Below, piece by piece: positions 12,319 to 31,660 of a stretch of 64,000 nt of DNA (position 1 is its first letter; each line of letters starts with the position of its first letter). Under the pieces are notes generated by a model, which saw nothing but the letters and a program-made list of their open reading frames with translations, made no database searches and was not told the DNA's origin. This stretch comes from Desulfolithobacter dissulfuricans (GTDB lineage Bacteria; Desulfobacterota; Desulfobulbia; Desulfobulbales; Desulfobulbaceae), in the NCBI RefSeq assembly GCF_025998535.1, contig NZ_AP024233.1, positions 2,054,001 through 2,118,000 on the forward strand, read 5' to 3'. The position numbers were made by a program, and so were the translations under genes.

Positions 12319-13971
12319 CTAGCGACGACTTTGCACGGAGACATCGAGTGCCAGCAGCTTCTCTCCTTTTTTCCATTGCTGATAAGCACCACTGAATTGG
12401 GCTGCTTGGCAGAGAATCAGCCAGCCATGCTTGAACTGCTGTTTCATAGCTCCATCCTGGAAAAGCCAGTGTCCCCTGTCGCTGGTGAATATCAGGCAGA
12501 ACTGTTCCGGATTCCTGAGAGACCAGGCAACCTGTTCTCTGAGGGTGCGCATCGGTTTGAGAGGTCTGGTCAAGCGGCCTGCGAACTGGAACTGATCAGA
12601 TAATTCTGCCGGATACACAGCCACCATCCTGCCCTGCTCCTGCACTTTGCTTATTTTCACAGCCAGGGCTGTCTCGTCGTACAGGGTATGCAGAGGTCTA
12701 TATAACGCCAGATGAAAAAAAATCATCAGCAGGAGTATTCCCCAGGAAATAGATTGAAGATGTTGCCTGGTTCCGGATGGACGAAAGAAAAGAAAACAGA
12801 TCGCCACAATAACGGGACCGATGCCGATCCAGGGAGGAAGAAACTTGAGCATGACTGCATCCCTGCCCTGCAGAGGTAGCCAGGGAATGACAGACAGGAC
12901 CAGGCCAAGAATACCGAGCAAAAAGACCATCGGCCACCGGTCACGGAAGAATTGCACGCCCCGGTCTGTTACGCCTCGGGCTGCCAGCAAGGCCACCGGC
13001 GGCAGCAGGGGCAGGCTATAATGAAGCTGCTTGCCACTGATAGCAGAGAGCAGAAAAAAGGAGGGCACCACCGCACTCAGGCAGAAACGTACAGATCTAT
13101 CAAGACTGAGTCGCCTGCACCCTGTCCAGAAAGAGAGACAGAAAAACCAGGGGAAGAGGATGACCGGAAGCAAAACCCCATACCAGTAGAAAGGCCGCTG
13201 GTGCGCAAAGGAATGGACCACACGACCGGCTGTCTGGCCAAAGAGGATGGCTTGCCCGTATTCCACTCCACCGGCCCTGGCCGCCGGAAGAGCCCAGCAG
13301 AGAGCAAGGACAGTGCCCCCGGTAACAGCGGCAAGAAGCCCGCCGTACCAGCTTAGCCAGAAACGGTTTCCCTCTCTGCTACTCCACCAGGGTGCAAAGA
13401 GGGCCGGCGGCAGAACATACACCAGAATTACCGGTCCCTTGGCAAGCAGGCCCAGCCCTGTTGCAAGCCCAAACAAAGCCCAGCCCATGGCTTTCTGCCC
13501 CCTCTCCACCCGCACAAGAGCAAGCCAGGCCAGCAGAGAAAAAAAGACGAGGAGCATGTCAAACATGGTGAGTGTTCCATACAGGCTCCAGATGAACATA
13601 CCCGTGAGAATATAGGGAACGGCGCTCCTGACTTCTTTATTTTCAGGCCATAACATGGCTGCCAGCCGCATGGTTAGAATTATGCCTGCAAAGCCAAAAA
13701 GCGGAGCAGTCAGCCGGGCCGACCAGGCATTGACCCCGAAGAGAAACCAGCCCAGGTGAATAAGCCAGAACAGCAACGGTGGCTTGTGACTGTAAGGCAG
13801 GCCGTTGATATGGGGGACCAGAAACTGGTTGCTCTGCCACATTTCCCAGGCAACGGAAAGATAGCGGGTTTCATCTATCGGCACCGGCGGCCTGGCAACG
13901 AGGGCCGAAGCCAATAAGAGCGCCCAGATGAGAATCCACTGCCAATCGGTATACGACCTACGCCCTGGCAT
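12319..13971 (-). CDS. ArnT-like GT39 glycosyltransferase
   Basis: A 550-residue integral-membrane glycosyltransferase of the GT39/ArnT/PMT group, which uses polyprenyl-phosphate sugars to modify lipid A or glycans on the periplasmic face. About 11-12 hydrophobic segments follow the PIDETRY motif, which matches the catalytic DE-x-RY loop of ArnT, and a soluble C-terminal domain follows as in ArnT. The start at 13971 is chosen because the reading frame upstream lies inside the LABN gene in a different frame; the two genes overlap by 14 bases, suggesting coupled translation. Together with LABN and the divergent two-component system it looks like a lipid A modification unit. The sugar donor cannot be told. 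Confidence 0.85.
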   Translation of the reverse strand: MPGRRSYTDWQWILIWALLLASALVARPPVPIDETRYLSVAWEMWQSNQFLVPHINGLPYSHKPPLLFWLIHLGWFLFGVNAWSARLTAPLFGFAGIILTMRLAAMLWPENKEVRSAVPYILTGMFIWSLYGTLTMFDMLLVFFSLLAWLALVRVERGQKAMGWALFGLATGLGLLAKGPVILVYVLPPALFAPWWSSREGNRFWLSWYGGLLAAVTGGTVLALCWALPAARAGGVEYGQAILFGQTAGRVVHSFAHQRPFYWYGVLLPVILFPWFFCLSFWTGCRRLSLDRSVRFCLSAVVPSFFLLSAISGKQLHYSLPLLPPVALLAARGVTDRGVQFFRDRWPMVFLLGILGLVLSVIPWLPLQGRDAVMLKFLPPWIGIGPVIVAICFLFFRPSGTRQHLQSISWGILLLMIFFHLALYRPLHTLYDETALAVKISKVQEQGRMVAVYPAELSDQFQFAGRLTRPLKPMRTLREQVAWSLRNPEQFCLIFTSDRGHWLFQDGAMKQQFKHGWLILCQAAQFSGAYQQWKKGEKLLALDVSVQSRR

Positions 13972-14242
13972 ACGCCTTGACCCTTTGATCTTTTTTGATG
14001 AAATGAAGATTGCGGAAATAGATGAGCAAACCGGTGGACTGGCCCAGAATAAACACCGGATCCCTCCGGTACACGGCATAGGAGAACAGAATTGCTCCGC
14101 CGACGATGCTGAAATACCAGAATGCCAGGGGAATGATACTTTTCTTCTGCCGCTCACTTGCCAGCCACTGCACAAGAAAGCGGCAGGTAAAGCATGCCTG
14201 TCCCAGAAAACCGATGACAAGCCAGATTGTTTCCTTATCCAT
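13958..14242 (-). CDS. Lipid-A-disaccharide synthase N-terminal domain (LABN) membrane protein
   Basis: A 94-residue protein with three hydrophobic helices. It matches the small LABN proteins, related to the extra N-terminal part of some LpxB proteins and to small membrane proteins next to glycosyltransferases (WLVIGFLGQACFTCRFLVQW, then SIIPLAFWYFSIVGG). The ATG at 14242 is preferred over the GTG at 14245 because AGGTGA lies 9 bases before it. Its end overlaps the GT39 gene. Such proteins often accompany ArnT- or GT2-type enzymes and may act in lipid-linked sugar transport; that is inference. Confidence 0.82.
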   Translation of the reverse strand: MDKETIWLVIGFLGQACFTCRFLVQWLASERQKKSIIPLAFWYFSIVGGAILFSYAVYRRDPVFILGQSTGLLIYFRNLHFIKKDQRVKAYARA

Positions 14243-14256
14243 CACGTATGGTCACC

Positions 14257-14343
14257 TTTATATGAAAGTCTCATCCCACCATCCGGAGAACAACAGCTTT
14301 CATGTTTCGTTGTGCAGGCCGTGCGAGCCTGCATGGGTGTTAG
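14257..14343. repeat. Dispersed structured repeat, copy 1
   Basis: 87 bases, nearly identical (about seven differences plus one indel) to 58417-58504. It contains a 7-bp stem atgaaag/ctttcat (14262-14268 / 14297-14303) and a perfect 7-bp stem tgcaggc/gcctgca (14313-14319 / 14327-14333). In both places it lies just upstream of a minus-strand gene, here LABN. Function unknown. Confidence 0.65.
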
Positions 14344-14738
14344 TCATTTCCAGTGAGATCGCCCTGATCAAAAAACTCTGCTCAGGGCTGCTCCCATACA
14401 TCGTCATCAGATCCTGGTCAGCCAGTCGTGAGAAAAGCACCAGGACAGAAAATCAGTCGCCACCTGTCATGCCGTGAGCTTTACCATGGGAAGATGAAGA
14501 AATGATGAAGAGAGGAACCGAAAAAAACAGCGGACCATGGGCCTTTCATCATTTCTTCATGAAAGACTGGTATGGTGGCAATCACACAGGAAAAGAGCGC
14601 TTTTTCTCTATCTTGACCAGGGAAACAGGAACATGTTGTATTATCTTCCCAGTTCCATTACGAAAAAGTGATTCTTTTCTGCTATGGCTCCACCCTGCCG
14701 CCCCGGTGCGTGACAATGGAGTGGTCTCAGGAGAAACC
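14344..14738. promoter_or_regulatory. Divergent regulatory region with a 16-bp inverted repeat
   Basis: No gene is seen here. It separates the LABN-GT39 pair from the response regulator. Positions 14494-14509 and 14545-14560 form a perfect 16-bp inverted repeat (atgaagaaatgatgaa and its complement) with a 35-base spacer. Placement upstream of a regulator gene suggests an autoregulatory operator or an mRNA leader hairpin. The frame that runs back to 14502 before the regulator is not credible protein. Confidence 0.5.
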
Positions 14739-15416
14739 ATGCGAATTCTGATAGTTGACGACGAACCGGAACTGCTGGAACAGATCAGGCAGGCCCTTAA
14801 CCGGCAGCAGTACACAACAGATACGGCCATGGATGGGGAAGAAGCCCTGGACCGTGCCTTCTCCGATCCCTATGACTTGATCATCCTTGATGTCATGTTG
14901 CCGAAAAAAGACGGATTCGGGGTACTTCTGGAGTTGCGAAACGAAAAGATAACCACTCCGATACTGATGCTCACCGCCAGAGGAGAGATTGAAGACCGGA
15001 TCAAGGGACTTGACCTGGGAGCTGACGATTACCTGGCCAAACCCTTTTCCATGGCTGAACTGCTGGCCAGAATTCGTGCCCTGCTCAGGAGAGGGAACGA
15101 GCTCGTTACATCGGTACTGGAAACCGGGAATCTCCGCCTGAACACGGCAACCAGGGAAGTTACACTCAATGACCGGCCGCTCAAGCTTACCCCGAAAGAA
15201 TTTTCTGTTCTGGAATTTCTCCTGTACAACAGAAATCGGGCTGTATCGCGTTTCAGCATGGCCGAACATGTATGGGGCGATGCCTTTGATCCCTTTACCA
15301 TGTCCAACAACATCGATGTCCACATTAAAAATCTGCGCCGCAAAATCGGGGATACCGGGGGTGAGGTCATCAGGACGGTACGCGGAGTGGGCTATATAAT
15401 CAGGGATGATGATTAA
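14739..15416 (+). CDS. OmpR/PmrA-type response regulator
   Basis: A 225-residue regulator: receiver domain with D7/D8, phosphoacceptor D51 (LIILDVMLP) and the K of YLAKPF, then a winged-helix DNA-binding domain ending in RTVRGVGYIIRDDD. ATG 14739 follows CAGGAG by 6 bases and begins with the standard MRILIVDDE; the longer frame upstream is not used. The stop overlaps the next gene's ATG by one base. The neighbourhood of lipid A-type genes suggests a PmrA/BasR-like role. Confidence 0.92.
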   Translation: MRILIVDDEPELLEQIRQALNRQQYTTDTAMDGEEALDRAFSDPYDLIILDVMLPKKDGFGVLLELRNEKITTPILMLTARGEIEDRIKGLDLGADDYLAKPFSMAELLARIRALLRRGNELVTSVLETGNLRLNTATREVTLNDRPLKLTPKEFSVLEFLLYNRNRAVSRFSMAEHVWGDAFDPFTMSNNIDVHIKNLRRKIGDTGGEVIRTVRGVGYIIRDDD

Positions 15417-16852
15417 TGAAGATACGTAACCGAATCACCCTGTGGATTACTGCCAGCGGCCTGGTGGCAAGTCTGCTTTTTTCTCTGGTCGTCTCCTACG
15501 AAATGATTGAACAGCCCTACGACTTACTTGACGAGGAGCTGGACATCCAGGCCCATACCCTGATCTCAGGCCTTGAACCGCAATCCGGCAAACTGCAAAG
15601 AGACCTCACAGAGAACACCATGCTGTCGTCTCTTACCAGGCCATACTGGATCAAGATTTTCAATGAACAACAGGAACTCATCTATGCCTCGGACATGGTG
15701 CGCTTTACCGATCTGCCTCTGGACCCAAAACGCTCCAGATATACTGTCAGCACCACCATGCCCGCGAAAACCATCAACCTGGAACAGGATGACAATGACG
15801 AGGTGGCGTTCCGGGTTCGAATTTTCACTATTCCTGTTGCAGGCCATTCCTATCTTGTTCAGATAGCCCGGCCGATAGAAAAGCTGGACGAAGAGATTTT
15901 CGACCTGCTGATCTCCCTGCTTATCGGATTGGCTTGTTCAGCCGCTGTTATGGTTGGGCTTGGGTATTATGTTTCCGGACGCATCCTGAAACCGATCAGC
16001 GCTATTAACAGTCTGGCCCGGGAGATCACCGACAAGACCCTGGACAAACGAATCCCGCTCGGCAAAAACCGTGATGAACTCTATGAGCTGTCTTCTTCCC
16101 TGAACCACATGTTTGACCGTCTGCAGTATTCTTTCCAGCACCAGAAAGAATTTCTTGCCAATGCTTCTCACGAGCTGAAAACACCCATTGCCATGCAACG
16201 GTTATTTTTTGATGAAGCGCTGCAGCTCAGTGAGCTGCCCGACAATTTCAGAAAACAGCTTGTGCAGCAAAGCAGGATTCTTTGTCGTATGGATCGGCTG
16301 GTGAAAAATCTGCTCGACCTGTCAGCGCTGGAGTTACAGGCAGCCTGTGATCCCGAAGAACTTGATTTAGTGGAACTCACCGCCACGGTTTTCACTGAAT
16401 TTGAAGATATTATCAGGGCAAACAACATAGAACTCTCCCTCGAGCTGCCAGGGAGCGCTTTCATAAGGGCAGACGGTGAAAAAATCAAACGGGTGCTGAT
16501 CAATCTCATCGATAACGCCATCAAATACAACCATCCCGAAGAAGGCCGGATAGAATGTCGTATCACAACGGAAAACAAGGGAATATGGTTGGAAATATAT
16601 AATAGCGGTCCCGGCATGCCGGCTGATCAGTTAGAGCGGGTCTTTGATCAGTTTTACCGGGTTGAAAAATCCCGCTCAACCGCTCTTGGCGGCGCAGGTT
16701 TGGGATTGACCATCGTGAAACGGATCATTGAAATGCATGGCGGCACCATCACGATGGAAAGTGAGGCCGGGTCCTGGACCCGTGTCCGTGTTTTTTTCCC
16801 AACCCTGCAAACAGACAAAAAACGGAGCGATTCAGCGCCGCTGAACGCGTAG
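15416..16852 (+). CDS. Sensor histidine kinase (PmrB/QseC-like)
   Basis: A 478-residue inner-membrane sensor. Transmembrane helices at about 8-27 and 163-185 bracket a ~135-residue periplasmic domain; HAMP follows (about 186-240), then the H box with H252 in ASHELKTP, the N box LINLIDNAIKYN, and G boxes ending GGAGLGLTIVKRI. The start overlaps the regulator's stop by one base, so the pair is coupled. Its 3' end overlaps the convergent MFS gene by 21 bases. The signal is unknown. Confidence 0.93.
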   Translation: MKIRNRITLWITASGLVASLLFSLVVSYEMIEQPYDLLDEELDIQAHTLISGLEPQSGKLQRDLTENTMLSSLTRPYWIKIFNEQQELIYASDMVRFTDLPLDPKRSRYTVSTTMPAKTINLEQDDNDEVAFRVRIFTIPVAGHSYLVQIARPIEKLDEEIFDLLISLLIGLACSAAVMVGLGYYVSGRILKPISAINSLAREITDKTLDKRIPLGKNRDELYELSSSLNHMFDRLQYSFQHQKEFLANASHELKTPIAMQRLFFDEALQLSELPDNFRKQLVQQSRILCRMDRLVKNLLDLSALELQAACDPEELDLVELTATVFTEFEDIIRANNIELSLELPGSAFIRADGEKIKRVLINLIDNAIKYNHPEEGRIECRITTENKGIWLEIYNSGPGMPADQLERVFDQFYRVEKSRSTALGGAGLGLTIVKRIIEMHGGTITMESEAGSWTRVRVFFPTLQTDKKRSDSAPLNA

Positions 16853-18019
16853 CCTCTGCTCTTTCTGCACTGCGACGAGAAGAACGATCGATCCGGCCGC
16901 TATGAGTGCGTCCAGCAGAAACGCCTGCGCTGATCCGAAGATCTGCCAGACAGTGCCAAAGAGCAGGGCCCCGGGAAGTGCGGCCAGGCCGACAACCATG
17001 TGATAGAGGCCAAAGGCCGTTGCCCGTTCCCGGCTTCGTGCGAAATCGCCGACCAGGGCGCGTTCCGCACCTTCTGTTGACGCAAGCGCGGCAGCATATC
17101 CCAGAAACAGCATCCACACGATAATCTGGTTGGTCAGGCCACAGGACCAGGCAAGGGCCAGAAGAAGAACAATACGCAATGACCAGCCGACCAGCAGAAC
17201 CGCCAGTCTGCCGAAACGATCCGACAGACACCCTGCCGGTCCGGCGACCACGGCCTTGACCGCACTGGCGGCTGCCCATAACAGAGGAACCCAGGCAACC
17301 TGCAGGCCCTGATCGCTGGCCCAGAGAACAAGAAAGGCCTCTGGTGCACTGGCCAGGGCAAGCCCGCCGGCAGCAAGGATCATGCCACGCAGACGTTGAT
17401 CCAGAACAGACCATCGCAGTGGCGGAAGCCGGGTAGGTCTGCCGGCTGCCGGTGTATCCTCCAGGCCAAAATACAGCAGCGCAATAACAAGGATTCCCGG
17501 TACGAGAGACCAGAAAAAGACATGTTGCATGCCCATGCCGCTGCGCAGCAGCAACCAGGCACAAAGAGGACCCAGCATGGATCCAGCATTATCCAGGGCC
17601 CGATGAAAACCAAAGGCACGACCGCGCCGGGCCGCATCGATTGACCCGGCAATAAGCGCATCCCTCGGAGAAGTCCGCAACCCTTTACCGACCCGGTCCA
17701 GAAACCGCAGAACCAGTACCCAGCCCCAACCAAGCGCCAGGCCGATCAGAGGACGGGCCGTGTTGGAGACGGAGTATCCCCCCAGCACCAGACGCTTATG
17801 GTTCCAGCCCCTGTCCGCCATCCGGCCGGAATAGAGCTTGAGCAGACTGGCCGTGGCCTCGGCGACACCTTCCACAAGGCCCACCACCGCGGGTCCTGCC
17901 CCAAGCGTGGCGGTCAGGAACAGGGGTAACAGAGGCGTGATCATTTCACTGGCCGTGTCATTTAAAAAGGACACAAGCCCGAATATGATCACCGTGCGCG
18001 GCAGGAAACCTGTTTTCAT
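16832..18019 (-). CDS. Major facilitator superfamily transporter
   Basis: A 395-residue protein with about 12 hydrophobic segments and the MFS loop motif GRMADRGWNHKR between helices 2 and 3, repeated in weaker form as CLSDRFGR in the second half. Its ATG overlaps the stop of the DedA-PAP2-LssY gene (18016-18019), so the two are translated together. The early FLNDTASEMITPLLPLFL segment is like MFS proteins of unknown substrate. An export role in envelope stress is possible but not shown. Confidence 0.85.
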   Translation of the reverse strand: MKTGFLPRTVIIFGLVSFLNDTASEMITPLLPLFLTATLGAGPAVVGLVEGVAEATASLLKLYSGRMADRGWNHKRLVLGGYSVSNTARPLIGLALGWGWVLVLRFLDRVGKGLRTSPRDALIAGSIDAARRGRAFGFHRALDNAGSMLGPLCAWLLLRSGMGMQHVFFWSLVPGILVIALLYFGLEDTPAAGRPTRLPPLRWSVLDQRLRGMILAAGGLALASAPEAFLVLWASDQGLQVAWVPLLWAAASAVKAVVAGPAGCLSDRFGRLAVLLVGWSLRIVLLLALAWSCGLTNQIIVWMLFLGYAAALASTEGAERALVGDFARSRERATAFGLYHMVVGLAALPGALLFGTVWQIFGSAQAFLLDALIAAGSIVLLVAVQKEQRLRVQRR

Positions 18020-20019
18020 GGTTGCCTCTTCACCGCGCTGTAGAGCAGAAGCACCTTGTCTCCCCCGGGTCGCCGGACCAGTTTCCGGCCAAGATCGAGA
18101 TGCTGTGCCAACACGTCCGGCGAAACATTTTCAACTGTTCGCGGCAGGTTGATAATGTACATGTAGTTTCGCACCGTCATCCGGCTCAGCGTTCCGACCC
18201 AGAGCGGTGTTGTATTATCAAGACGTATATCTGCCGGCCATAAACGCAGCACCAGTAAATCATGGGGACTGGTGGAAAGTGCATGTATGAGCAGCAGTTG
18301 TTCATGCCGGCCGTCATGCACCTGGGGCAGGATGGGCAAACTGAACGGATCAGGATCGGCAAGCAGCCAGCGCAGGCCTGTCACCACGGTCAGGGGAACA
18401 GGTTGCCGCCAATCCCGGGCAAGAAGCATTTTTTTCAGTTTGTCGAGATCCCCTGCATACTGCAGATTAAACACCTGCTCTTTTTCTCCCTCCAGATCCA
18501 GCCGGGCCACGGGTAACTGCTGCCAGCCCTCTGTCTGCCACACAGATGTCGGCATGGTGCGCACATCGTGACGCAAGGCATAGCGAAGTTTATTCCTGTT
18601 AAATCCACTTGACCAGTGTACGGTGGCAGCCAAAACAAGAACCGTCAGGCAGAGAGCCCACAGTCCCCGGTAGGCACAGGAACGGGTGGGGACATGGTTG
18701 AAATAGGCAACCGAGAGCAAAATAAGCCAGGCTGTGCCGAGGCAGAAGCCACCGACCACATCAGAAAGCCAGTGCGCTCCAAGATAGAGGCGTGACGCGC
18801 CTATCCCGGTAATCAACACCAGAGCGAAACTCACCGGCAGCCAGCGCCTGTCCGGGCGCAGTTCCCGGCTGCAAAGCAGGGCAAGAAAGCCGAAGATGAT
18901 CACGCTGATGGTGGCGTGATTACTGGGATAAGCCCAGCGGACCGCACCCTGGTACATATCCACTGGTCGTGGAATGTGGGTAAGAGTTTTCACAGCGGTA
19001 ACAAGGAAAAATCCTCCCGCCACGGTGATAGCGAGATAAAGCGCCGAATAGCGGTCTTTTCGCCAGAGCAGCCAGACCAGGGCGGCCAGGGTCAGCGATC
19101 CAGTGACAGCGGCGTCACCGAGCATGGTTATGGCGACCATGATGGTATCGCCCCAGGGCGTACGCAGGCCCTGGAGCAGGTGATAGACCGATTGATTGAC
19201 CTGCACCAGAGGATCGCCGGTGACCACATCTTCAGTTATGCCGAAAAAGAGCCAGAGTGAACCGACAAAGACCATGGCCAGCAACACCAGCAGCCGCAAC
19301 ATGGATTGATCCCGGTCAAGGACACCGCCCTTCAGCCAGCGCTGCAACAGGGGCAAACGCTGCAGCAGCACCAGCAGTTTTTTCTCCCAGGCCGGAAAAC
19401 GGTTCAGAGCAAAACGAAGGAGTCTCCGGGAGAGAAAAAAGACCATCCATCCGCCAACAACACTGACACCGATCAAGATGGCGAGACGTTTGGCCACTTC
19501 GCCTGCCAGAGCCAGTGAGGCTCCAAAAGCCATACCTGGCAGCAGATAGGCAGGCGCCCAGCCAAGGGCAGAAAGCACGTTGTAGAAAGTGAAGTGGACC
19601 GGATCCATGCCAAGCATTCCGGCAACCAGGGGGATAACGGGCCTGATTGGCCCGATAAAACGGCCAAAAAAGACGGACTTGCCTCCATGGCGGTGAAAAA
19701 ACGATTCTCCCCTGGCGAGCATATCCTGGTGTTTCGCAAAAATACGTAACGAGCGAATATTGTCTTTATAATAATGACCCAGCCAGTAACTCAGACCGTC
19801 GGCGAGCACTGCTCCAAAGACCGCCCAGGCCATGGTTGGCCAGAAGGACAAGGCCCCGGTGGCAATCAGGGCGCCTGCCGTCAGCATTAAAGCCGCACCG
19901 GGGACCAGCAGGCCGATGACCGCCAATGATTCGGCAAAGGATGTCAAAAAAATGACCAGCCCGGCCAGATTTGGATGCTTGGCTATCCCTGTGGTGACAG
20001 TGGTGAGCAGTTCAGTCAT
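18016..20019 (-). CDS. DedA - PAP2 phosphatase - LssY C-terminal fusion
   Basis: A 667-residue membrane protein with three parts. Residues about 1-200 are a DedA/SNARE-associated domain (FAESLAVIGLLVPG, then GRFIGPIRPVIPLVAG), linked to polyprenyl-phosphate or lipid flipping. About 240-465 is a PAP2 lipid phosphatase with all three catalytic motifs: K-x6-RP (KTLTHIPRP), PSNHA, and SRLYLGAHWLSD. About 490-667 matches the LssY C-terminal domain of unknown role. The fusion would couple movement of a polyprenyl (pyro)phosphate with its dephosphorylation. It precedes the MFS gene with a 4-base overlap. The domain call is by motif. Confidence 0.88.
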   Translation of the reverse strand: MTELLTTVTTGIAKHPNLAGLVIFLTSFAESLAVIGLLVPGAALMLTAGALIATGALSFWPTMAWAVFGAVLADGLSYWLGHYYKDNIRSLRIFAKHQDMLARGESFFHRHGGKSVFFGRFIGPIRPVIPLVAGMLGMDPVHFTFYNVLSALGWAPAYLLPGMAFGASLALAGEVAKRLAILIGVSVVGGWMVFFLSRRLLRFALNRFPAWEKKLLVLLQRLPLLQRWLKGGVLDRDQSMLRLLVLLAMVFVGSLWLFFGITEDVVTGDPLVQVNQSVYHLLQGLRTPWGDTIMVAITMLGDAAVTGSLTLAALVWLLWRKDRYSALYLAITVAGGFFLVTAVKTLTHIPRPVDMYQGAVRWAYPSNHATISVIIFGFLALLCSRELRPDRRWLPVSFALVLITGIGASRLYLGAHWLSDVVGGFCLGTAWLILLSVAYFNHVPTRSCAYRGLWALCLTVLVLAATVHWSSGFNRNKLRYALRHDVRTMPTSVWQTEGWQQLPVARLDLEGEKEQVFNLQYAGDLDKLKKMLLARDWRQPVPLTVVTGLRWLLADPDPFSLPILPQVHDGRHEQLLLIHALSTSPHDLLVLRLWPADIRLDNTTPLWVGTLSRMTVRNYMYIINLPRTVENVSPDVLAQHLDLGRKLVRRPGGDKVLLLYSAVKRQP

Positions 20020-20102
20020 GGTTGCAATTTTTTCTCAGCCCGGATGTATCTGCAAATCGAGTTGTGGGTTGTGAGCTAGCTGAGCTTCAGTGGTCATCAA
20101 AT

Positions 20103-21167
20103 TTATTTTTCCGCCCCAGCGGGTCTGCGATGTTTCCGGTGGTAGAGAAACTCCAGCATCCCGTCAACGGCAAGCGTCAGGATAAAAAATCCCATGAGTA
20201 CATATTTCATATAGATCCTGCCAAAGGTCAAAAGGTAGAGTCCGGCAAGATGCATATATTTTTTCATACCGGAGTAGGTAATATTCCTGTCTATTTTGAC
20301 CAGCTCGGAGGTAACCTTCTGCTCCCCGACAGTGACCCGGACATAATGATAGAATGTATGCTCCGGGTCCTTGCCCACCAGCTCGGCTCCTGCACCGCCA
20401 CTGACGATGGTATGCAGCCCGTGGATTGTCTCGTCATACCAGGCATGAATATGCGAGGTAAAAAGTGTGGTAACCCTGTAGCGCAGAAACAGGTCCTCAA
20501 GTCGGCGGGCCACATCCGCGTCTTTCAGGGCATGGGCATAGCGGACAAGCGCCCCGGGTTTATCCCTGGGATCCCAGAGCGGCACATGCATGAAGACGAA
20601 CCGGTATTTGTACCGAAGTCCGTCTTTAAGCTCTTTTTCAAGCCAGGCCTCCTGTTCATCGCCAAGACTCGTCTCATTGCTGTTATCAAGGAGGATAAAT
20701 TTAGCGTCACCAAGGACAAAGGAATAGTACATCCGCCCGAAGATGTGATAGTACATATCCATGTTATGAAAGGCCACATCATGGTTTCCGGGCAGGGTCA
20801 GGTTGGGGATCTGCAGTTCACGACGCTGATCAAGGTATTGACGGAAGGTATCACGGTCCGGATAGAGCACCAGATCGCCGCCGATAATGGCAAACTGTAA
20901 CGTCTGGTCATTATTGAGCTTGCGGACAACATCGCTGAAGACCGGACTGTTCTTGGCATCAGCGAGAAAGGCAAAGGTGAGGGGTCCTTTCTCATACCGC
21001 TGCTCTATCCTCTGCAGGGCCTGAAAATTCAGGTCATGATCTTCAATAGGAAAAAGATCGGCTATTTCAATATATGCCCAGAAACAGAGGATAAGAACAA
21101 TCAAGAGCAGCCGAAACCAGGTCCGGCGACGAAAATAGATCGTAGTCAGTCGGGTAAGTTTTTCCAT
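20103..21167 (-). CDS. Membrane-anchored calcineurin-like metallophosphatase
   Basis: A 354-residue protein with an N-terminal helix (about 17-35) and a C-terminal hydrophobic segment (about 308-333) around a metallophosphoesterase domain. GGDLV, LPGNHDV, MHVP and TSHIHAW supply motifs II-V. The usual first motif D-x-H reads D-A-K (FLADAKNS), so one metal ligand appears replaced. Possible substrates include pyrophosphate groups of envelope precursors, as for LpxH/YbbF-like enzymes; this is inference. It lies between two membrane-protein genes on the same strand. Confidence 0.78.
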   Translation of the reverse strand: MEKLTRLTTIYFRRRTWFRLLLIVLILCFWAYIEIADLFPIEDHDLNFQALQRIEQRYEKGPLTFAFLADAKNSPVFSDVVRKLNNDQTLQFAIIGGDLVLYPDRDTFRQYLDQRRELQIPNLTLPGNHDVAFHNMDMYYHIFGRMYYSFVLGDAKFILLDNSNETSLGDEQEAWLEKELKDGLRYKYRFVFMHVPLWDPRDKPGALVRYAHALKDADVARRLEDLFLRYRVTTLFTSHIHAWYDETIHGLHTIVSGGAGAELVGKDPEHTFYHYVRVTVGEQKVTSELVKIDRNITYSGMKKYMHLAGLYLLTFGRIYMKYVLMGFFILTLAVDGMLEFLYHRKHRRPAGAEK

Positions 21168-21252
21168 AGTATCAAGTTGTAATTGCTGAAATTATAGTCC
21201 TGCAGATTGAAGGAATCAGCTGTCTTCTCTGAAGGTGGCTGGCTTTTATGCA

Positions 21253-22026
21253 TCAGGAAAGCTTGATCCCGGGCTGTTCTCCATTCTGTACGGCTATAAA
21301 ATTCAACGTTGTGTGGATGGTAAACAATGGAAAAAGCAGGGCCATACAGAAGATATTGATCACCGGAATCATGCTGATGAAGGCAGGGAAAATCCCGAGC
21401 CGGAAGGAGTGGATGCGGTACGTTCGCACCCAGTCAATTTTCTTTCCCAGGGTCCAGCGATGATTGGAAGCGGGATAATCGATGAACATCAGGGCAGAAT
21501 AAAAAACATAGATCAGAAAGACCAGAGCCTGACCGACAACCGGGATGCAGTTTACCGCCAGGGCAACCATGGTGACCAGGATACCAATCGCGCCGATCTT
21601 GCATCCTTCCCACAGGTCGATGAGTACACCGGCCGGTGTGAATCCGTCCGTTTGCTTAACCTGACGGCCCAGATAGATCTTTTCTGCTGCTCCGCTTAAA
21701 AAGACGTATCCGGGCGTGGTAAGGCAGTAGGCGGTCAGAAAGGCGAGATAGAAGGCAGCAATGCGGGTGATAATAAGAAAAAGATATTTGACCACCAGCC
21801 AGCCCTTGCCGACCAGCCAGCCCCAGATACCGGTGATATCCGGAGGCTGCTGGAAAAAATGACCGGTCAGACCATCGATGAGGTGTATCGCCTCAAGGTA
21901 GCCGATCCAGGTCAACGCCACGGTGATTGCCACGAGCAATATGCTCCATCCCAGAAGACGGAGATGACGAAAAAGAAACCCCATGGAATAGGTCAGGGGA
22001 ATCCATTGCCTCTTATGGTTAATCAC
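21253..22026 (-). CDS. EI24/CysZ-like multi-span membrane protein
   Basis: A 257-residue protein with four or more long hydrophobic segments and the pattern of the EI24/CysZ family: an early amphipathic start (GFLFRHLRLLGWSILLV), a central charged loop (EKIYLGRQVKQTDGF), and a P-rich last part (FISMIPVINIFCMALLFPLF). CysZ members import sulfate; many others have no known role. Nothing in the neighbourhood points to sulfate uptake. Function left open. Confidence 0.7.
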   Translation of the reverse strand: MINHKRQWIPLTYSMGFLFRHLRLLGWSILLVAITVALTWIGYLEAIHLIDGLTGHFFQQPPDITGIWGWLVGKGWLVVKYLFLIITRIAAFYLAFLTAYCLTTPGYVFLSGAAEKIYLGRQVKQTDGFTPAGVLIDLWEGCKIGAIGILVTMVALAVNCIPVVGQALVFLIYVFYSALMFIDYPASNHRWTLGKKIDWVRTYRIHSFRLGIFPAFISMIPVINIFCMALLFPLFTIHTTLNFIAVQNGEQPGIKLS

Positions 22027-22269
22027 CCTGCTCCTCCTTTTCTCGCTCTCCGGATTGATGTGTCAACGTATCTTCCTCCATATAACGTACGGTTATGGAA
22101 ACAATTCTTTGTATCCAAATTCTGTATCCATCAGTTAATGGGGCAGAACCTGTTCCGGAACGTGTGCAGGCAATGCCGGAACCAGATCTCTAGCTTGTTT
22201 TACAAGGAGTTGTAATCCCCAGAAGCACAGGCATACTGCCGGCTCAAAAAAGGGGCTTCTGCCCGGGAC

Positions 22270-22563
22270 CTATGAGCCAAAATTAATAATTTCTATTGCA
22301 ACATCTCTTCCAATGTATGTTTGACAGGCCAGCCGCATGTTCTCATCTGCGCCAATCGCCTCAAGTCTTTTCGCTTCCCGAGAGTTTACAGGACTCAAAA
22401 ACTGCTGCCCTTCCAGGACACGGACTACGCATTTTCCACACATGGCTTTGCCACCGCATACTGTTTCAATCGGAATACCATGTGATTGCAGTGTGACCAG
22501 GATGGAGCGAACCATGGTTGTTTCAATGCGCTGTCCAGTGTTCTTAATAAAGATCGATGGCAT
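22270..22563 (-). CDS. [2Fe-2S] ferredoxin
   Basis: A 97-residue plant/adrenodoxin-type ferredoxin. Cysteines at 36, 42 and 45 (VCGGKAMCGKC) and at 80 (RLACQ) give the C-x5-C-x2-C...C pattern. A free-standing electron carrier; the partner is not evident. It sits among envelope genes, with a 244-base gap before it that holds no gene. Confidence 0.87.
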   Translation of the reverse strand: MPSIFIKNTGQRIETTMVRSILVTLQSHGIPIETVCGGKAMCGKCVVRVLEGQQFLSPVNSREAKRLEAIGADENMRLACQTYIGRDVAIEIINFGS

Positions 22564-22745
22564 GTCATTCCTTTATTTTTCAGGTAACAGGAGTTGAGTG
22601 CGCGTTGGTACTCCATCATGGGATACCAGTGCGTGGTGTTTAAGGTGCTGAACCACTCAAGTCTCTCCTCCCCTGGCGCCTCAGTGCCTTTGCGCCTTAT
22701 CGCTTAATTCGGGCTGGGTTTCAGTGGTGATCAAAAATAATACAG

Positions 22746-23357
22746 TCATGCAGCTGACCGTTTTCTCCTGTACAGCATGACAAAGGCAAAAACAAGGAGC
22801 AGAACCGCTGCCACGTACTTCTGCGCCAGATGCATGACTGTTTCGTAATTCCTGCCAAAAAGGTAGCCTACCAGAATAAACTCGCCTATTCCCACAAATA
22901 CGCCTGGTACATTGAACAGGATGAATCGTTTAAATTCCATCTGAAAGACGCCTGCCAGGGCCGGGGTAATCCAGGAAAAGGGGCCGCTCAAACGGGCCAG
23001 AAACACGGACCAGGGGCCATTGCGCCGGAAAAAGGCCTCACCCCTTTTATAATTCTCTTGGGTAAACACCCTTCTCAGCAGAGGTTTTTCACTGAAATGC
23101 GCAAAGAACGACTTGCCGTAGCGCCGACCCAGAAAATAGCTGGTGGTGTCACCCAGGATGCCTCCGGTATAAAATAATGCGGCGACAATCCAGATGTTGA
23201 GTATGCCCATACCCGCCAGAATGGGGCCGGCCAGAAAGATAATTTCCCCATAAACAAAGAGTGAACAGGGAAACACCGTCTCGATATAGGCACCTGCCAG
23301 GAGAACAGCATAGGCAACATGCTGGTGCTGTTCCAGAAAGAGAAGAAAAGATTCCAC
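22746..23357 (-). CDS. DedA family membrane protein
   Basis: A 203-residue protein of the DedA/SNARE-associated family with the E-x3-P early acidic motif (YIETVFPCSLFVYG) and the downstream FLARLSGPFSWITPALAG region that matches the conserved R-x3-G/P-x4-P segment. The family is implicated in recycling undecaprenyl phosphate and moving phospholipids across the membrane. The next gene, a glycosyltransferase fusion, ends 3 bases away and is read in the same direction just before it, so the two are co-transcribed. Confidence 0.85.
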   Translation of the reverse strand: MESFLLFLEQHQHVAYAVLLAGAYIETVFPCSLFVYGEIIFLAGPILAGMGILNIWIVAALFYTGGILGDTTSYFLGRRYGKSFFAHFSEKPLLRRVFTQENYKRGEAFFRRNGPWSVFLARLSGPFSWITPALAGVFQMEFKRFILFNVPGVFVGIGEFILVGYLFGRNYETVMHLAQKYVAAVLLLVFAFVMLYRRKRSAA

Positions 23358-23360
23358 GTT

Positions 23361-25163
23361 TCACCTGATGACCAGGTAACTTTTGCCTTTTTTCATAGAG
23401 ACAGGCTGCATGGCCTGATACCACCAGATGAGCGTCTGTTTGAGGTAACCCTGTTTTTCGAAGCGCCGGGCAGAGGTTGCGGCCTTGTCTGTCTGCAGAA
23501 AGAAAAAATCCCCATACCGGCGGGCCTGCCTGATATAATCCAGATCTTCGGCATAACTGAGCTGCTCGTCATAGGCTACCTGCGAAGCCACCTCGGCCCG
23601 GACTATCTGCAGCCCATAGGAGGTACGGCTCAGCCGGTGGCCCAGATCGTACAGGCTAAACCAGAACCGTGCCTTGGCAGAAGAGGTATCCGATGGTTTA
23701 AGCGCGGTAGTGCCGATCGCCAGGTTATCGGCAGCGTGTTTGCCAAGATACCTGTCCAGCTCACGAAGAAAACCCGGTTCAAGACGGGTATCGGCATCGA
23801 GAAAAACAATCCAGTCACTGTCAGGACTGGCCTGGGCAAAACCCGTATTTCTGGCCCGGGAAACGCCTTTTTCACAGGTCAGAACAGATAGATTTTCATG
23901 TATTGCCGCATAACTGCTGGCTATCTCCCTGGTGCTGTCAGTGGAGCCGTTTTCCACCACAATGATTTCATAACAGTCTACCGGATAGTCCTGGCTGACA
24001 AGGTGGTTCAGGGTTCCTTCCAGGTAGTGTTCCTCATTATGTGCAGGAATTATGAGAGAAAAGCGATTGCCACCGAGATGTTTCTTCACCTCGTCATGGA
24101 CTATTTCCAGACTTTTTTCCGTTTTCCAGGGAGGGATGAAACGGTCAGTCTGCTGGATTTCTTCCACCATGGCGGGGAGATCAACATGTTTTTGCTCCCT
24201 GCCGGTGACATACCACTGTTTTTCACCCAGGAAATCCGCCAGATATTCCTGCTCGGTCTGTTTCGGCGTGGCAAAGAGCACGGCCTGTTTATCCATTTCT
24301 GCCAGATCCATGACCGTGGTGTAGCCTGAGCGGGAAACAATCAGCCGGGCCTGATTAAAGAGCGTGTTACGCTGGCTGCCCGTAACCACCGGATAGATGG
24401 TGATATTATAGTCGGGCAGACAGGTCACCTCCTCGGTGCTGGTGTCTCCCAGGACAAAGACCTTGGTGCCTGCCAACCTTTTTGCCTGCTCGAGCAGTTT
24501 ACCGATAAACGACTCCCTCTGATGCTCAAGATACCCGCTGATGATGAAGAGGTAGTCAATCTCTTCTCTGTCCTGTTCACGGGTATAGGCGGAAAGGACA
24601 CCGATCCAGTTATGTTTCAGTTTATCGGTAACCCTGTTATGGGACAGTCTGCCGGACAGACAGGTTTCCATCTCAGGAAAATCAGGGATGAAAACCATGT
24701 CAAACCGGCGCAGATACCTGCTGTTTATCCAGTCAACGATCGGACGGAACAGTCCCAGTCCCCTGGGCATGATGAAAGAAATCTGGTGGGAAATGAGAAA
24801 GCTGGGTATCTGGGTCGAACAGATTCCATAGCGGCCATCGGAAATAATGCAGGCATACTGATGCTGCCGCTCTCTGATGAAGTTCCTTTCACGGCGGATA
24901 AGGCGGGCGGTGGTGAACAGATCGACAACAAGATAATAAAAATAGGCAAGCCCCGAGCCCCGCTCGAGCTTTGGATAATCCTGCAGTTCAATGAAACTGA
25001 CGTGGTGCTCCCGAAGTTCCTGCCTGAGGAAACGCAGGCCATTGCCATGGGAAAGCACGCTGACGTGCCAGCCTTTTACGAGAAACGATCTGATAATTGG
25101 CAAAGATCTGGTCGCGTGGCCCAGCCCCAGCGAGCTGACAGCAAAGAGAACGTGATTTGGCAT
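23361..25163 (-). CDS. Two-domain glycosyltransferase (MurG-like plus GT2)
   Basis: About 600 residues. The first half resembles GT28/GT1-type transferases: SSLGLGHATRSLP at the start, then SRSGYTTVMDLAEMDK, a nucleotide-sugar-binding pattern. The second half (from about residue 370) is a GT2 transferase: SLIIPAHNEE, the ENGSTDST loop, and DADTRLEPGF with the D-x-D metal motif. It may add two sugars to a lipid acceptor. The frame is open to an ATG at 25193, but M11 at 25163 begins directly with the conserved fold; the true start is uncertain. It precedes a dedA gene in the same direction. Confidence 0.82.
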   Translation of the reverse strand: MPNHVLFAVSSLGLGHATRSLPIIRSFLVKGWHVSVLSHGNGLRFLRQELREHHVSFIELQDYPKLERGSGLAYFYYLVVDLFTTARLIRRERNFIRERQHQYACIISDGRYGICSTQIPSFLISHQISFIMPRGLGLFRPIVDWINSRYLRRFDMVFIPDFPEMETCLSGRLSHNRVTDKLKHNWIGVLSAYTREQDREEIDYLFIISGYLEHQRESFIGKLLEQAKRLAGTKVFVLGDTSTEEVTCLPDYNITIYPVVTGSQRNTLFNQARLIVSRSGYTTVMDLAEMDKQAVLFATPKQTEQEYLADFLGEKQWYVTGREQKHVDLPAMVEEIQQTDRFIPPWKTEKSLEIVHDEVKKHLGGNRFSLIIPAHNEEHYLEGTLNHLVSQDYPVDCYEIIVVENGSTDSTREIASSYAAIHENLSVLTCEKGVSRARNTGFAQASPDSDWIVFLDADTRLEPGFLRELDRYLGKHAADNLAIGTTALKPSDTSSAKARFWFSLYDLGHRLSRTSYGLQIVRAEVASQVAYDEQLSYAEDLDYIRQARRYGDFFFLQTDKAATSARRFEKQGYLKQTLIWWYQAMQPVSMKKGKSYLVIR

Positions 25164-25235
25164 TGTTATTTTTTTCGTGTTACCCTCGAGCATTGAGAGC
25201 AGACATATAATAAAATTTCCAGCAATCTATGCTCA

Positions 25236-25850
25236 CTATTCTACACGACCGGATTTTCCTGTATTGCACCAAAAAATATAAACCGACACAACCACCAGGC
25301 AGATAGCCAGTACTCCGAGCATGATCTGGTGCAGATACCGGCTGATCAGTTCCTGATTGTTACCTATCCAGTATCCGACCATGGCGAGAATGAGTACCCA
25401 GATGCCAGCGCCGAGTGCAGTGAAGATGGCAAAGATTGACAGATTCATGCGCGCCAGACCGGCAGGCAGGCTGATATACTGTCGAATGCCGGGTAACAGG
25501 CGGCCGACGAAGGTGGATATATGCCCGTGCCGGGAAAAAAAATAATCTGCCTTGTCCAGGTTTTTTTCACTGACGAGAACATAGCGGCCATACTTCTCAA
25601 AGAGCGGCCGCCCCCACCTGCTTGCCAACCAATAGTTGAACAGGGCCCCCAGCAGACTGCCGCCAATACCGGCAAAAATGACCAGGCCCAGTGACATCTC
25701 TCCCCGCGCTGCCAAATAACCGGCCGGCGGCATAACGACTTCACTGGGAAAAGGAAAAAAGGACGATTCCAGAAACATCAGAATAACGATGCCGGAATAT
25801 CCCCATTGGCCGACCGTCTGTACAATCCAGTTGATAATATCGTGCAACAT
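25236..25850 (-). CDS. DedA family membrane protein, with an IS immediately upstream
   Basis: A 204-residue DedA protein: early [13 protein letters not shown] acidic motif, [11 protein letters not shown], and [16 protein letters not shown], all family hallmarks. The native start is ATG 25850. The 9-bp target duplication of the insertion sequence begins at 25853, two bases beyond the start codon, so the natural promoter and ribosome site are now 1.86 kb away. The IS end is open in the same frame for 44 codons back to an ATG at 25982, so a fusion starting inside the IS is possible. Confidence 0.85.
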
Positions 25851-25861
25851 GATGTGGCGTG

Positions 25862-27716
25862 CAGCAATTCCCGGACAAGCCTGAAACGTAGGTATAGCGT
25901 GAAATCTTACGACATTTTTCGTAAACTTTTTATCCAATCCAGAGGATCGGACCCAACATGCAAATATCGACGGTGTCATCATAACCTACTGGAATAACGA
26001 CGATAAAAAACAAGATCCCGGTTATTTTTTTCTTGACAAGGCCTTGAAAGGGCGGTTCGCGTTTTTCTATGTGATTTCAATTAGTTGCATAGGAGAACGC
26101 CATGGACCAAATCAAACTCTACAACGTGGAACGTATTGTCAGCCTCATCACGGATCAGACCAAAACGGTGCGAAAGCATTGCAATGCTGATAACTTTATC
26201 CGAGTATTGCGCCGATGTTTTCAGGCGATCCCTGATCACCGCCAAGTCAGCAAAACGAGCATCTCCCTCGATGATGCTCTCATGTCAGCATACGCCATGT
26301 TCTCCCTCAAGGATCCCTCGTTGCTGGCTTTTGAAAATCGACGTCTCAACGAGGCCGAAAATCTGCGTGCCGTATTCGGTATCGAAAACATCGCCTCCGA
26401 CACCCAGATGCGGGAAATCCTCGATCCTCTTTCGCCGCGTGAATTCAGATCAGGTTTTACCGCGGTATTCCGCATCCTCCAGCGCGGCAAAGACCTCGAA
26501 GCCATGACCTGTCTGGATGGACACTACCTGATCAGCGGTGACGGTACCGGTTTCTACTATTCGACAAAAGTCGGCAATGATTTCTGCCTCAGAAAGAAAC
26601 AGGAAAACGGTAAACATGCCTACTACCAGCAGATGTATGGAGCAGCCATTGTCCATCCTGACAAACGGGAAGTCATTCCCTTCTGTCCCGAAATGATCAG
26701 CAACCAGGACGGCACCAGCAAGCAGGACTGTGAGCGGGCTGCTGCCCAGCGTTTCTGGCGAGAGTTCCGTCGCGAACACCCTCATCTTCCAGTCATCGTC
26801 ACTGAAGACGCTCTGAGCAGCAATGCACCGCATATACGGGAGCTCAAGGCCTTGAACCTGCGTTTCATTCTTGGTGTCAAACCAGGTGACCATCAGTTTC
26901 TGTTCGAGCAGTTCGATGCCTCTGTCGAGACGGGTAAAGTGACGGAATTCAACATGGATGATCCCAGGGATCCAAAGAAATATCATGTCTTCCGCTACGT
27001 CAATGGCCTGTCCCTGAACAAGTCCAACCAGGATCTGAAGGTCAACCTGCTCGAGTACTGGCAAGCTGACGACAAGGGCAATGAACTGCGGTTTGCCTGG
27101 GTGACCGACCTGGAGATCACCAGGGAGAACGCCTATGAGATCATGCGGGCGGGCCGGGCCCGGTGGCGTATCGAAAATGAGACGTTCAATACCTTGAAGA
27201 ACCAAGGGTATCATCTGGGACACAACTATGGCCTGGGGGCACAACATCTTTCAATGGTATTCACCACTCTGATGGTGCTGGCGTTTCTGGTTGACCAGGC
27301 TCAGCAGCTGGGATGCTGGCTTTTCCGCAAGGCCTGGGAAGAGTCCAGAAGCAAACGTCAGCTCTGGGAGAATGTCCGTAGTCGATTCAGGGAACTTCCT
27401 GTAGACTCGATGGAAACACTCTACCGGAGCATTGCTTTTGGCATCAAGGGGTACGTCGTCGAGGTGATCGAACCTGACGATGTGATGACCTGACCCGCCG
27501 TCAATCGGTGGGCTATATCAAAGAGCACGACCTGCCGCAAACAGGAGCGGCAAGGTAAGGGTGCAACTATGCTTAATTGTCAGGATATATCCCTTTTTTG
27601 GTTAACAACTTGGCGCATGATGGCGTGATCAAAGCGAAATAGCTTTACCGTCCCCCTTGGGTGAACATAAATCTGCGCCTACCATGGCTCAGAATGCCCT
27701 TCACCGGGAATAGCTG
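25862..27716 (+). mobile_element. Insertion sequence (1855 bp), copy 1, complete
   Basis: Ends were fixed by comparison with the second copy at 50358-52212. Terminal inverted repeats cagcaattcccgg / ccgggaatagctg match at 12 of 13 positions. A 9-bp target duplication tgtggcgtg lies at 25853-25861 and 27717-27725. One transposase gene fills most of the element; the 27494-27716 tail has no gene. IS4-like DDE element; subgroup not determined. Confidence 0.95.
26102..27493 (+). CDS. IS4-like DDE transposase (copy 1)
   Basis: A 463-residue transposase, cut-and-paste type. Likely catalytic residues: D in ISGDGTGFYYS, D in VTEDALSSNAPH, and E in the YREK-like segment RWRIENETFNTLK, which is followed by NQGYHLGHNYG. 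AGGAG lies 8 bases before the ATG. A second ATG-started frame at 26085 is a shadow. The protein is the same as that at 50598. Confidence 0.93.
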   Translation: MDQIKLYNVERIVSLITDQTKTVRKHCNADNFIRVLRRCFQAIPDHRQVSKTSISLDDALMSAYAMFSLKDPSLLAFENRRLNEAENLRAVFGIENIASDTQMREILDPLSPREFRSGFTAVFRILQRGKDLEAMTCLDGHYLISGDGTGFYYSTKVGNDFCLRKKQENGKHAYYQQMYGAAIVHPDKREVIPFCPEMISNQDGTSKQDCERAAAQRFWREFRREHPHLPVIVTEDALSSNAPHIRELKALNLRFILGVKPGDHQFLFEQFDASVETGKVTEFNMDDPRDPKKYHVFRYVNGLSLNKSNQDLKVNLLEYWQADDKGNELRFAWVTDLEITRENAYEIMRAGRARWRIENETFNTLKNQGYHLGHNYGLGAQHLSMVFTTLMVLAFLVDQAQQLGCWLFRKAWEESRSKRQLWENVRSRFRELPVDSMETLYRSIAFGIKGYVVEVIEPDDVMT

Positions 27717-27780
27717 TGTGGCGTGTATCAGAACTCTGTTTTATCTCGGAACAATCCCGAGAATAACTGCCCCGGAGTAA

Positions 27781-28395
27781 TCATTTCAGCTTCTCCTTAA
27801 AATTATTTTTTGTTTTTTTGATGGGCAGCGCGGACTCAATCAGGGAAATTATGCGAATGAGCCGGTCGTACAGTGGTGTCAGAACCTCCCGCAGCAACGC
27901 GATCAGGACAGTGCAAAGCAGAGCCACCACCAAAGATCCCATGATGTCAAAGGGGAAATGGAGGCCCGTATAAATACGACCCCAGGATCCGATGACAGCA
28001 AGGATAAGAAAGAGAAGCCCCTGTTTCCACCACCCCCGCCGAAACAGAAGCGCAAAAGAAGCTCCGAAAAGAAGAGTGGCGTGATCACTTGGGAACGAGG
28101 TTTCCGGTGCATGGGGAATCAATGGCTGGCAGAGATGCAGCATATATGGCCGGGGATGGTAGTAAAACACTGTGATAAGCTGGTTGAGAAGCAGCCCGAG
28201 AGTCACCACGGCGGCTCCCTCAAGCAGTACCCGCTTTCCCTGCCGGTCCGTGCTGAACCAGAAGACTGCCATGCAAACGATAACCAGATACGGGGTAATC
28301 TCGGCACCGATCACGGAAAGAAAATCCGGGACCGGTCGATTGCCGGCCCCGGCATGCAGCCAGTTAAAGAGTTGAATATTTAATCCGTCATCCAT
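27781..28395 (-). CDS. PAP2 family phosphatase
   Basis: A 204-residue membrane phosphatase with about six helices and the three PAP2 motifs: YYHPRP, FPSDHATLLF and GRIYTGLHFPFDI. The arrangement resembles BcrC-type undecaprenyl-pyrophosphate phosphatases, though substrate is not proven. It was next to the dedA gene at 25236 before the IS insertion. Its downstream flank 27736-27754 has a small tctcgg/ccgaga hairpin that may act as a weak terminator. Confidence 0.87.
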   Translation of the reverse strand: MDDGLNIQLFNWLHAGAGNRPVPDFLSVIGAEITPYLVIVCMAVFWFSTDRQGKRVLLEGAAVVTLGLLLNQLITVFYYHPRPYMLHLCQPLIPHAPETSFPSDHATLLFGASFALLFRRGWWKQGLLFLILAVIGSWGRIYTGLHFPFDIMGSLVVALLCTVLIALLREVLTPLYDRLIRIISLIESALPIKKTKNNFKEKLK

Positions 28396-28697: not shown

Positions 28698-29078
28698 TTA
28701 ATCGCGGTCGTCATCTTCACGCCCCCCGTCCCGGTGTTCGTTATCGTCCTGCTCCCGGTAACCTCCATGGTCATAATCAACAGTATCGGTTTCCATGAGC
28801 AGGACCTCTCCGGAACCGGCGTCAATTTTGACATCAATGATGGTCTTTTCCGGTGTCACCACTTCAACGCCATAGACCAGAAATCCGTTTTCATTTTCAA
28901 GTTCCATCTTCAACACCTGCCCCTGCACTGTTGCCAGAGCGATATTTTTAGCCTGTTCCATGGTGATCACGGCCAGAGATGGATACTCGGACTCGTCCTG
29001 CTGAATTCGGATGGTACCGTTTTGGACCTCGGTATCCGCGTCTCCGGCAATGGAAAAACCGGTATAAAGCATACCTGC
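28698..29078 (-). pseudogene. PepSY-domain exported protein, 3' part (split by IS21)
   Basis: Carries the mature part of a PepSY protein: TMEQAKNIALATVQGQVLKMELENENG followed by VYGVEVVT and a DIKIDAGSGEVL-like strand, typical of PepSY, then an acidic, histidine-containing tail (HGGYREQDDNEHRDGG). Its signal peptide start is at 31661-31717 across the IS. Joining the halves through one copy of the 6-bp target duplication gives an intact frame: MKMKKKIIAGCVVGAALAG then MLYTGFSIAGDADTE. PepSY proteins of this kind often sit beside QseBC-like systems, as here (34.2-36.3 kb). Confidence 0.87.
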
Positions 29079-29264
29079 TGTCAATAGCCAAAAAAACTGA
29101 CCCACTACCGGACGACAAAATTGACCCACCCGGACAAAAAAATTGACCCACCCGAGGCCCCTGGCCAAGAGCCTGTCCGGTGCCCGCAAGGAGAGCGGGC
29201 TGGGAGAGTTCCAGGTCGAGACCACGGAGGCGATATGCGTTGTCGTGACGCTCCTGCATGGCGG

Positions 29265-31518: not shown

Positions 31519-31660
31519 GTTCCACCCCTTCAAGGTTGCCTCCTCCCGGTTTGTATGGTTGGGAAAAGGAGAGAGGATACAGCCAAACGGCTGCCGTTTC
31601 AGCCTCGAAATGGGTCAAAATTGTTGGCCTTATGTGGGTCAATATACTTGGCCATTGACA

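Follow-up and report, generated by a model that had tools for sequence, protein, structure and literature searches.

The closest described systems to the locus analysed here are the PmrAB (BasRS) two-component system of Salmonella and E. coli, the DedA and DedA-PAP2 proteins of P. aeruginosa, the GT2-LABN-GT39 operons for polyprenyl-phosphate sugar transfer and the glycosyltransferase Agt of Desulfovibrio alaskensis G20 (Dde_3613). In Salmonella, the verified PmrA box is composed of the half-sites CTTAAG and XTTAAT with five bases between them (PMC3973317). DedA proteins flip undecaprenyl phosphate (C55-P) and are needed in Ara4N-based colistin resistance (PMC12893004; PMC7835334), for which a P. 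aeruginosa DedA is required as undecaprenyl-phosphate flippase (PMC12893004). Moreover, the emergence of colistin resistance drops when the DedA-PAP2 fusion PA4011 is lost, and a role in flipping C55-P back was judged unlikely by the authors for this protein, the nearest studied DedA-PAP2 protein (PMC12893004). Glycolipid synthesis in D. alaskensis at low phosphate relies on an Agt homolog (PMC5193443). No published account of a gene combination such as the one presented below was found in the open literature, including searches for DedA+PAP2+LssY, for arnT with names beginning in Desulfobulb and for PmrAB in Desulfovibrio.

The open reading frames and domains of the window, that is, the whole stretch of 64,000 nt from Desulfolithobacter dissulfuricans, were checked against Pfam and NCBIfam. 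All the families named in the initial annotation for 16 kb of it (GT39, LABN, response regulator, histidine kinase, DedA, PAP2, LssY, metallophosphatase and glycosyltransferases) were recovered in place, together with five elements absent from it: an MFS transporter, an EI24/CysZ-like protein, a Fer2 protein, a truncated PepSY protein and an insertion sequence with its transposase. The host genome, a single 3.6-Mb contig, harbours six DedA and three PAP2 domains in total, of which three and two, respectively, fall in this stretch, so that the crowding of these genes exceeds chance. The view of a single cluster thus stood as regards clustering, but not as regards unity, since the 16 kb are three units with their own transcription directions, the third being split by the insertion sequence, and not one system. 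Unit 1 is formed by LABN and the ArnT-like GT39 on the minus strand, and unit 2 by the response regulator and the kinase, divergently transcribed on the plus strand. Unit 3, on the minus strand, runs from PAP2b across the insertion sequence to DedA3, a GT28/GT2 glycosyltransferase, DedA2, Fer2, EI24, the metallophosphatase, the DedA/PAP2/LssY fusion and the MFS gene, which closes the block and meets the 3′ end of the kinase gene tail to tail. With a probability of about 0.55, these units represent two modules lying side by side, namely a PmrAB-type switch (module A, 14.7–16.9 kb plus 12.3–14.2 kb) and an operon for glycolipid synthesis and lipid-carrier recycling (module B, 16.8–28.4 kb). For the comparisons with relatives, draft contigs were used, open reading frames were called by a simple script and orthology was taken from BLAST similarity, in a sample of 194–258 genomes of the order.

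Module A contains a PmrA-like response regulator of the OmpR/PhoB family (14739–15416, plus strand) and a sensor histidine kinase with two transmembrane helices, a periplasmic domain and an E29xxE32 motif beside TM1 (15416–16852, plus strand). PmrA was the best-scoring NCBIfam model of the regulator, at 213.6 bits and under the curated cut-off of 330, and the kinase scored 120 bits against the PmrB model (cut-off 314), its top model being the heavy-metal kinase TIGR01386 (CusS-type) with 208 bits, also under the cut-off (292.6). Overall, no family model reached its equivalog cut-off in NCBIfam for the regulator, the kinase, GT39 or PAP2b. The pair is named PmrAB-like since the curated cut-offs were not reached. 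When 41 kinases were aligned, about 83% kept the ExxE motif near TM1, and a second ExxE was not conserved. Using a threshold of E ≤ 1e−90, kinase orthologs were found in 52 out of 194 genomes of the order, and 40 of those loci were read. A total of 13 of them carried arn genes; ArnT with a LABN and/or GT2 partner appeared at six, in many cases with an LpxF-like PAP2 gene coming next, and further loci presented EptA, LtaS-like or sulfatase-type transferases. BacA was present at three (L024, L028 and L030), and at L034 ArnB, ArnC, ArnA, ArnD and ArnT were all named by NCBIfam, with ArnA and ArnD exceeding the cut-off. Together with the PmrA-box-like operator described below, this neighbourhood (arnBCADT, LABN-ArnT, EptA and LtaS-like genes) bore out the earlier label of a PmrAB-like pair, which is predicted to work like PmrAB, with its own genes and LABN-GT39 as targets in this genome. 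The likeness to the Salmonella and E. coli system lies in an OmpR-type regulator and kinase adjoining arnBCADT, EptA and ArnT in relatives, in a direct-repeat operator with an 11-bp period and perhaps in the ExxE conserved near TM1. In contrast, the half-site is CTTCAT here instead of CTTAA(G/T), the regulator stays under the PmrA cut-off, the kinase is nearer to the CusS-type model, ArnA is missing and LABN-GT39 is the only operator-bearing target. PmrAB-type control of surface charge would thereby extend to an order of environmental anaerobes, and the neighbourhood, which ties DedA, PAP2, BacA, EptA and ArnT together, bears on how DedA and PAP2 proteins aid lipid A modification.

The operator CTTCAT-N5-CTTCAT was found between LABN and the regulator at 14494–14510 (CTTCATCATTTCTTCAT, minus strand, facing LABN-GT39, 0 mismatches, conserved in relatives) and at 14544–14560 (TTTCATCATTTCTTCAT, plus strand, facing the regulator and kinase genes, 1 mismatch). 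Apart from these two, one per direction, no site of the 3.6-Mb genome comes within one mismatch of the motif. An unbiased search for direct repeats spaced by 11 bp upstream of the regulators retrieved CTTCAT/ATGAAG in 10 out of 35 regions, compared to a maximum of 2–3 in shuffled ones, the complete operator being CTTCATC[AG]TTTCTTCAT. Furthermore, a weight matrix built from the regulator-upstream sites detected 53 sites at 31 loci, compared to zero in 6.0 Mb of shuffled DNA. The predicted sites preceded regulator genes (10 cases), arnB (eight), LtaS-like/sulfatase genes (six), EptA (five), GT2(-LABN)-ArnT (five) and PAP2 (three). Many of them were not at the regulator but before arnB, EptA, LtaS-like, PAP2 or ArnC-like genes, and these sites provide independent support, as the matrix was derived only from sites upstream of regulators. 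The half-site differs by one base from that of the PmrA box, and intermediate CTTAAT half-sites occur at three loci of relatives (L056–L058), e.g. CTTAATCAATTCTTAAT and CTTCATCATTTCTTAAT. Given this, and its position before arnB, EptA and ArnT operons in relatives and before LABN-GT39 here, the motif reads as a variant of the PmrA box. Such a sharp operator gives testable target predictions, genome by genome. The canonical enterobacterial PmrA box with TTAA half-sites, also considered, appeared neither upstream of the regulators nor in the window. A weaker operator-like match was seen at 34040–34056 on the minus strand (CTTCATCAAGCCTTCAT, 17.1 bits).

The predicted target of this operator comprises a LAB_N domain protein of 95 aa with two transmembrane helices (LABN; 13958–14245, minus strand; PF07578, E=2e−33) and a GT39 (PMT_2/ArnT-like) membrane glycosyltransferase (12319–13971, minus strand; PMT_2, E=1e−11). 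The latter showed 52% identity to a 539-aa ArnT of a relative (L020), beginning at residue 91 of the long open reading frame, and its likely start is the ATG at 13971, overlapping the LABN stop. Of the name ArnT-like, the GT39/PMT_2 family membership was retained, but not the transfer of Ara4N. GT39 scored 94.6 bits against the ArnT equivalog model (cut-off 567), and no match over the cut-off was found for ArnA or ArnC in the genome. On this basis, aminoarabinose synthesis is absent, and the transferred sugar is not aminoarabinose since ArnA is missing. As in known GT2-LABN-GT39 operons, LABN and GT39 overlap, both here and in relatives (L020, L025, L026 and L031). In these relatives a GT2 gene separates LABN from the regulator, whereas here this partner is lost; the carrier-linked sugar must therefore come from another GT2. 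A second, complete GT2-LABN-GT39 operon is located at about 1.04 Mb of the same genome (L073:7383–10080), and its GT2 could perhaps be the supplier for GT39. A GT2 remnant between LABN and the regulator was also sought, with no convincing match. According to the model for module A, the kinase would sense a periplasmic signal and phosphorylate the regulator, which would bind CTTCAT-N5-CTTCAT twice between the divergent units and activate both itself and LABN-GT39, after which GT39 would take a sugar off its polyprenyl-phosphate carrier and attach it to lipid A or to some other acceptor at the surface.

All the genes of module B are encoded on the minus strand. The MFS transporter (16832–18019; MFS_1, E=2e−35) overlaps by 4 bp the DedA-PAP2-LssY_C fusion (18016–20019), in which the catalytic PAP2 motif residues are present. 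Compared with PA4011 (DedA-PAP2) and PA4029 (DedA, C55-P flippase) of P. aeruginosa, the domain make-up of DedA and DedA-PAP2, with its link to colistin resistance, is shared, but the fusion adds an LssY_C domain and sits in an operon with a glycosyltransferase and a metallophosphatase. The metallophosphatase (20103–21167; PF00149, E=1e−6), whose sequence matches were purple acid phosphatases, has a transmembrane helix at both ends, with lysine/arginine counts of 5 and 1 around TM1 and of 1 and 4 around TM2, and its catalytic domain is predicted to be periplasmic. It retains the metal-site motifs D70, D98, N128-H129, H194 and H239xH241, with DxK instead of DxH as motif I. The EI24/CysZ-like membrane protein (21253–22026; PF07264, E=6e−21) adjoins the metallophosphatase at L012 and the LssY fusion at L059 and L060, all in relatives, and the 2Fe-2S ferredoxin-like protein (Fer2; 22270–22563) did not appear in the operon of relatives (L005, L011 and L100). 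DedA2 (22746–23357) directly follows the gene of a two-domain cytosolic glycosyltransferase of GT28/MJ1255-like plus GT2 (TIGR04283-like) composition, lacking transmembrane helices (23361–25193), whose start may be the ATG at 25163. Its assignment as the arsenosugar enzyme TIGR04283 was rejected (99 vs. a cut-off of 182), and the GT28 half had no match among PDB sequences. DedA3 (25236–25850, likely start ATG 25850) carries the canonical GRxxPxxR motif. This type of motif, expected of UptA-type C55-P flippases, is kept in DedA3 and the LssY fusion, both candidate flippases, but not in DedA2, where the RxxPxxR-type motif has lost its second Arg. PAP2b (27781–28395) is closest to the YbjG-type undecaprenyl-diphosphate phosphatase of E. 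coli, with the catalytic residues recognisable in its sequence and a score of 99 bits, under the cut-off of 229 of the curated YbjG model. AlphaFold models from two-row alignments had mean pLDDT values of 52 (metallophosphatase) and 43 (glycosyltransferase), too poor to be used.

Neighbourhood comparison showed that the DedA/PAP2/glycosyltransferase/phosphatase block, a grouping made by the initial annotation, was not scattered in all relatives; judging by gene order, unit 3 is a genuine but rare operon, conserved in four other genomes. The order of module B was kept at L005, L011 and L100, pieces of the operon were found in G571, and a contig scan returned a single relative (L011). The GT28/GT2 protein itself was present in eight out of 258 genomes of the order. 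In the closer relatives, the operon reads PAP2b-DedA3-patatin (or BacA-DedA3-patatin), GT28/GT2, DedA2, metallophosphatase, LssY fusion and MFS, so that BacA (UppP) and patatin share it. The adjacency of GT28/GT2 and DedA2 was also detected in two other families (L102 and L104), with 44–57% identity, being the most widely conserved pair of module B, and it singles out DedA2 as a specific candidate for a DedA protein that serves a lipid-linked substrate of its own. In G571, genes for PspA and a PspF-type sigma-54 activator lie beside the GT28/GT2-DedA2-metallophosphatase group (L013:836–2764), hinting at membrane-stress control in that genome.

Whether both modules answer to one regulator was assessed from the operators and the gene neighbourhood. 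In the initial annotation, the PmrAB-like pair governed the whole 16 kb, all parts of which would serve one polyprenyl-phosphate sugar modification. Such an integrated system would agree with the DedA-PAP2-LssY gene adjoining the kinase ortholog in four of the 11 genomes having both (the own genome, G030, G486 and G556), when about 0.5–1% would be expected for each (P about 2e−7 to 3e−6). It would also agree with operators of relatives facing BacA-LssY (L024) and a PAP2-flippase-MPP/GT4-LssY group (L007), and with an OmpR-type pair of another subfamily that adjoins PAP2b-DedA3-DedA/PAP2/LssY on the same strand (L061:257–5900; similarly at L069 and L074). However, operators with at most one mismatch face only LABN-ArnT and the pair, and the whole-genome scan found none before any gene of module B, including PAP2b, DedA3, the glycosyltransferase, the metallophosphatase and the LssY fusion, so that control of unit 3 by the pair is not supported here. 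Moreover, G027 and G571 have the block at another place than the orthologous kinase pairs, and the contact between the MFS and kinase genes is merely tail to tail. In G567, one orthologous pair is placed at a contig end, beyond which the neighbours are not visible. A single integrated system is therefore considered unlikely, and the adjacency of the two modules may reflect a shared functional sphere.

As judged from families and topology, module B most likely makes an envelope glycolipid and recycles the polyprenyl carrier. The cytosolic GT28/GT2 protein and its partner DedA2 would build a lipid-linked sugar, the periplasmic metallophosphatase and the two PAP2 phosphatases would strip phosphates from the carrier or the product, and DedA3 and DedA-PAP2 would bring the monophosphate carrier back to the cytosol. 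A polyprenyl-phosphate sugar route is plausible but unproven. The two-module reading is weakened by the lack of an operator at module B, the scores below the cut-offs, the kinase's better match to the CusS-type model than to PmrB, the loss of the Arg in DedA2 and the judgement made on PA4011. More tentatively, and with low confidence, GT28/GT2, DedA2 without its second Arg and the doubly anchored metallophosphatase might form an undescribed pathway in which a lipid-linked sugar is made inside, moved by this specialised DedA protein and trimmed outside. Elsewhere in the order, the phosphatase domain, linked through the membrane to GT4, would have turned into a sensor or binding domain free of metal.

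The enzymes of module B could also be read as lipid remodelling that saves phosphate, with a PlcP-like metallophosphatase acting on phospholipids and an Agt-like glycosyltransferase making glycolipids at phosphate limitation. The sulfate reducer D. alaskensis makes glycolipids with its Agt homolog under such limitation (PMC5193443), an MPP-like domain is fused to GT4 in related clusters and patatin belongs to the relatives' operon. Nevertheless, the glycosyltransferase would share with Dde_3613 a role in envelope lipids of a sulfate reducer but not the family (GT28 plus GT2 instead of group 1), the fused MPP domains are devoid of metal ligands, and this route needs neither undecaprenyl-diphosphate phosphatases nor DedA. 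Furthermore, no Pho-box-like repeat with up to three mismatches was found upstream of PAP2b or PepSY, at the operon start. PlcP is cytosolic, unlike the predicted periplasmic phosphatase domain here, and the whole proposal appears quite improbable. The up to two families of undecaprenyl-diphosphate phosphatases (BacA and PAP2b) found with DedA in the relatives' operon, and PspA/PspF adjoining the block at L013, would fit an operon for undecaprenyl-diphosphate recycling and antibiotic tolerance (bacitracin-like stress), with the glycosyltransferase as a passenger. This is hard to favour, as no other pair is so widely conserved as GT28/GT2-DedA2, which makes the transferase a core part of module B, and little probability is assigned to it. 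With regard to the fusions to GT4, they were observed at L015:9407–11623, L016:199–2415, L017:9520–11733, L018:9842–12067 and L007:8766–11318, adjoining an LPG_synthase_TM protein. The metal ligands are lost in the aligned phosphatase-like domains of L015–L018, which look like pseudo-phosphatases and are probably periplasmic.

Finally, module B is interrupted by an insertion sequence (25862–27716, plus strand) with a DDE transposase (26102–27493), flanked by a 9-bp target duplication (TGTGGCGTG). Another copy, with 100% identity to it, lies at 50357–52212 and is likewise flanked by a 9-bp duplication (GCACCATGG), the terminal inverted repeat being CAGCAATTCCCGG. The gap between PAP2b and DedA3 is about 15 bp in relatives (L011 and L100). 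From the identical copies, the duplications and this short gap, it follows that the element landed recently inside a former operon. It sits 11 bp upstream of dedA3, with the transposase antisense to the block, and the expression of module B in this strain is therefore probably abnormal. Beyond PAP2b, a PepSY protein (28698–29225, minus strand), which adjoins PAP2 also at L015 and L034, seems to have lost its 5′ part to an IS21-type element with istA/istB (29265–31533), after which a reverse transcriptase of the group II intron type comes at 32032–33390.
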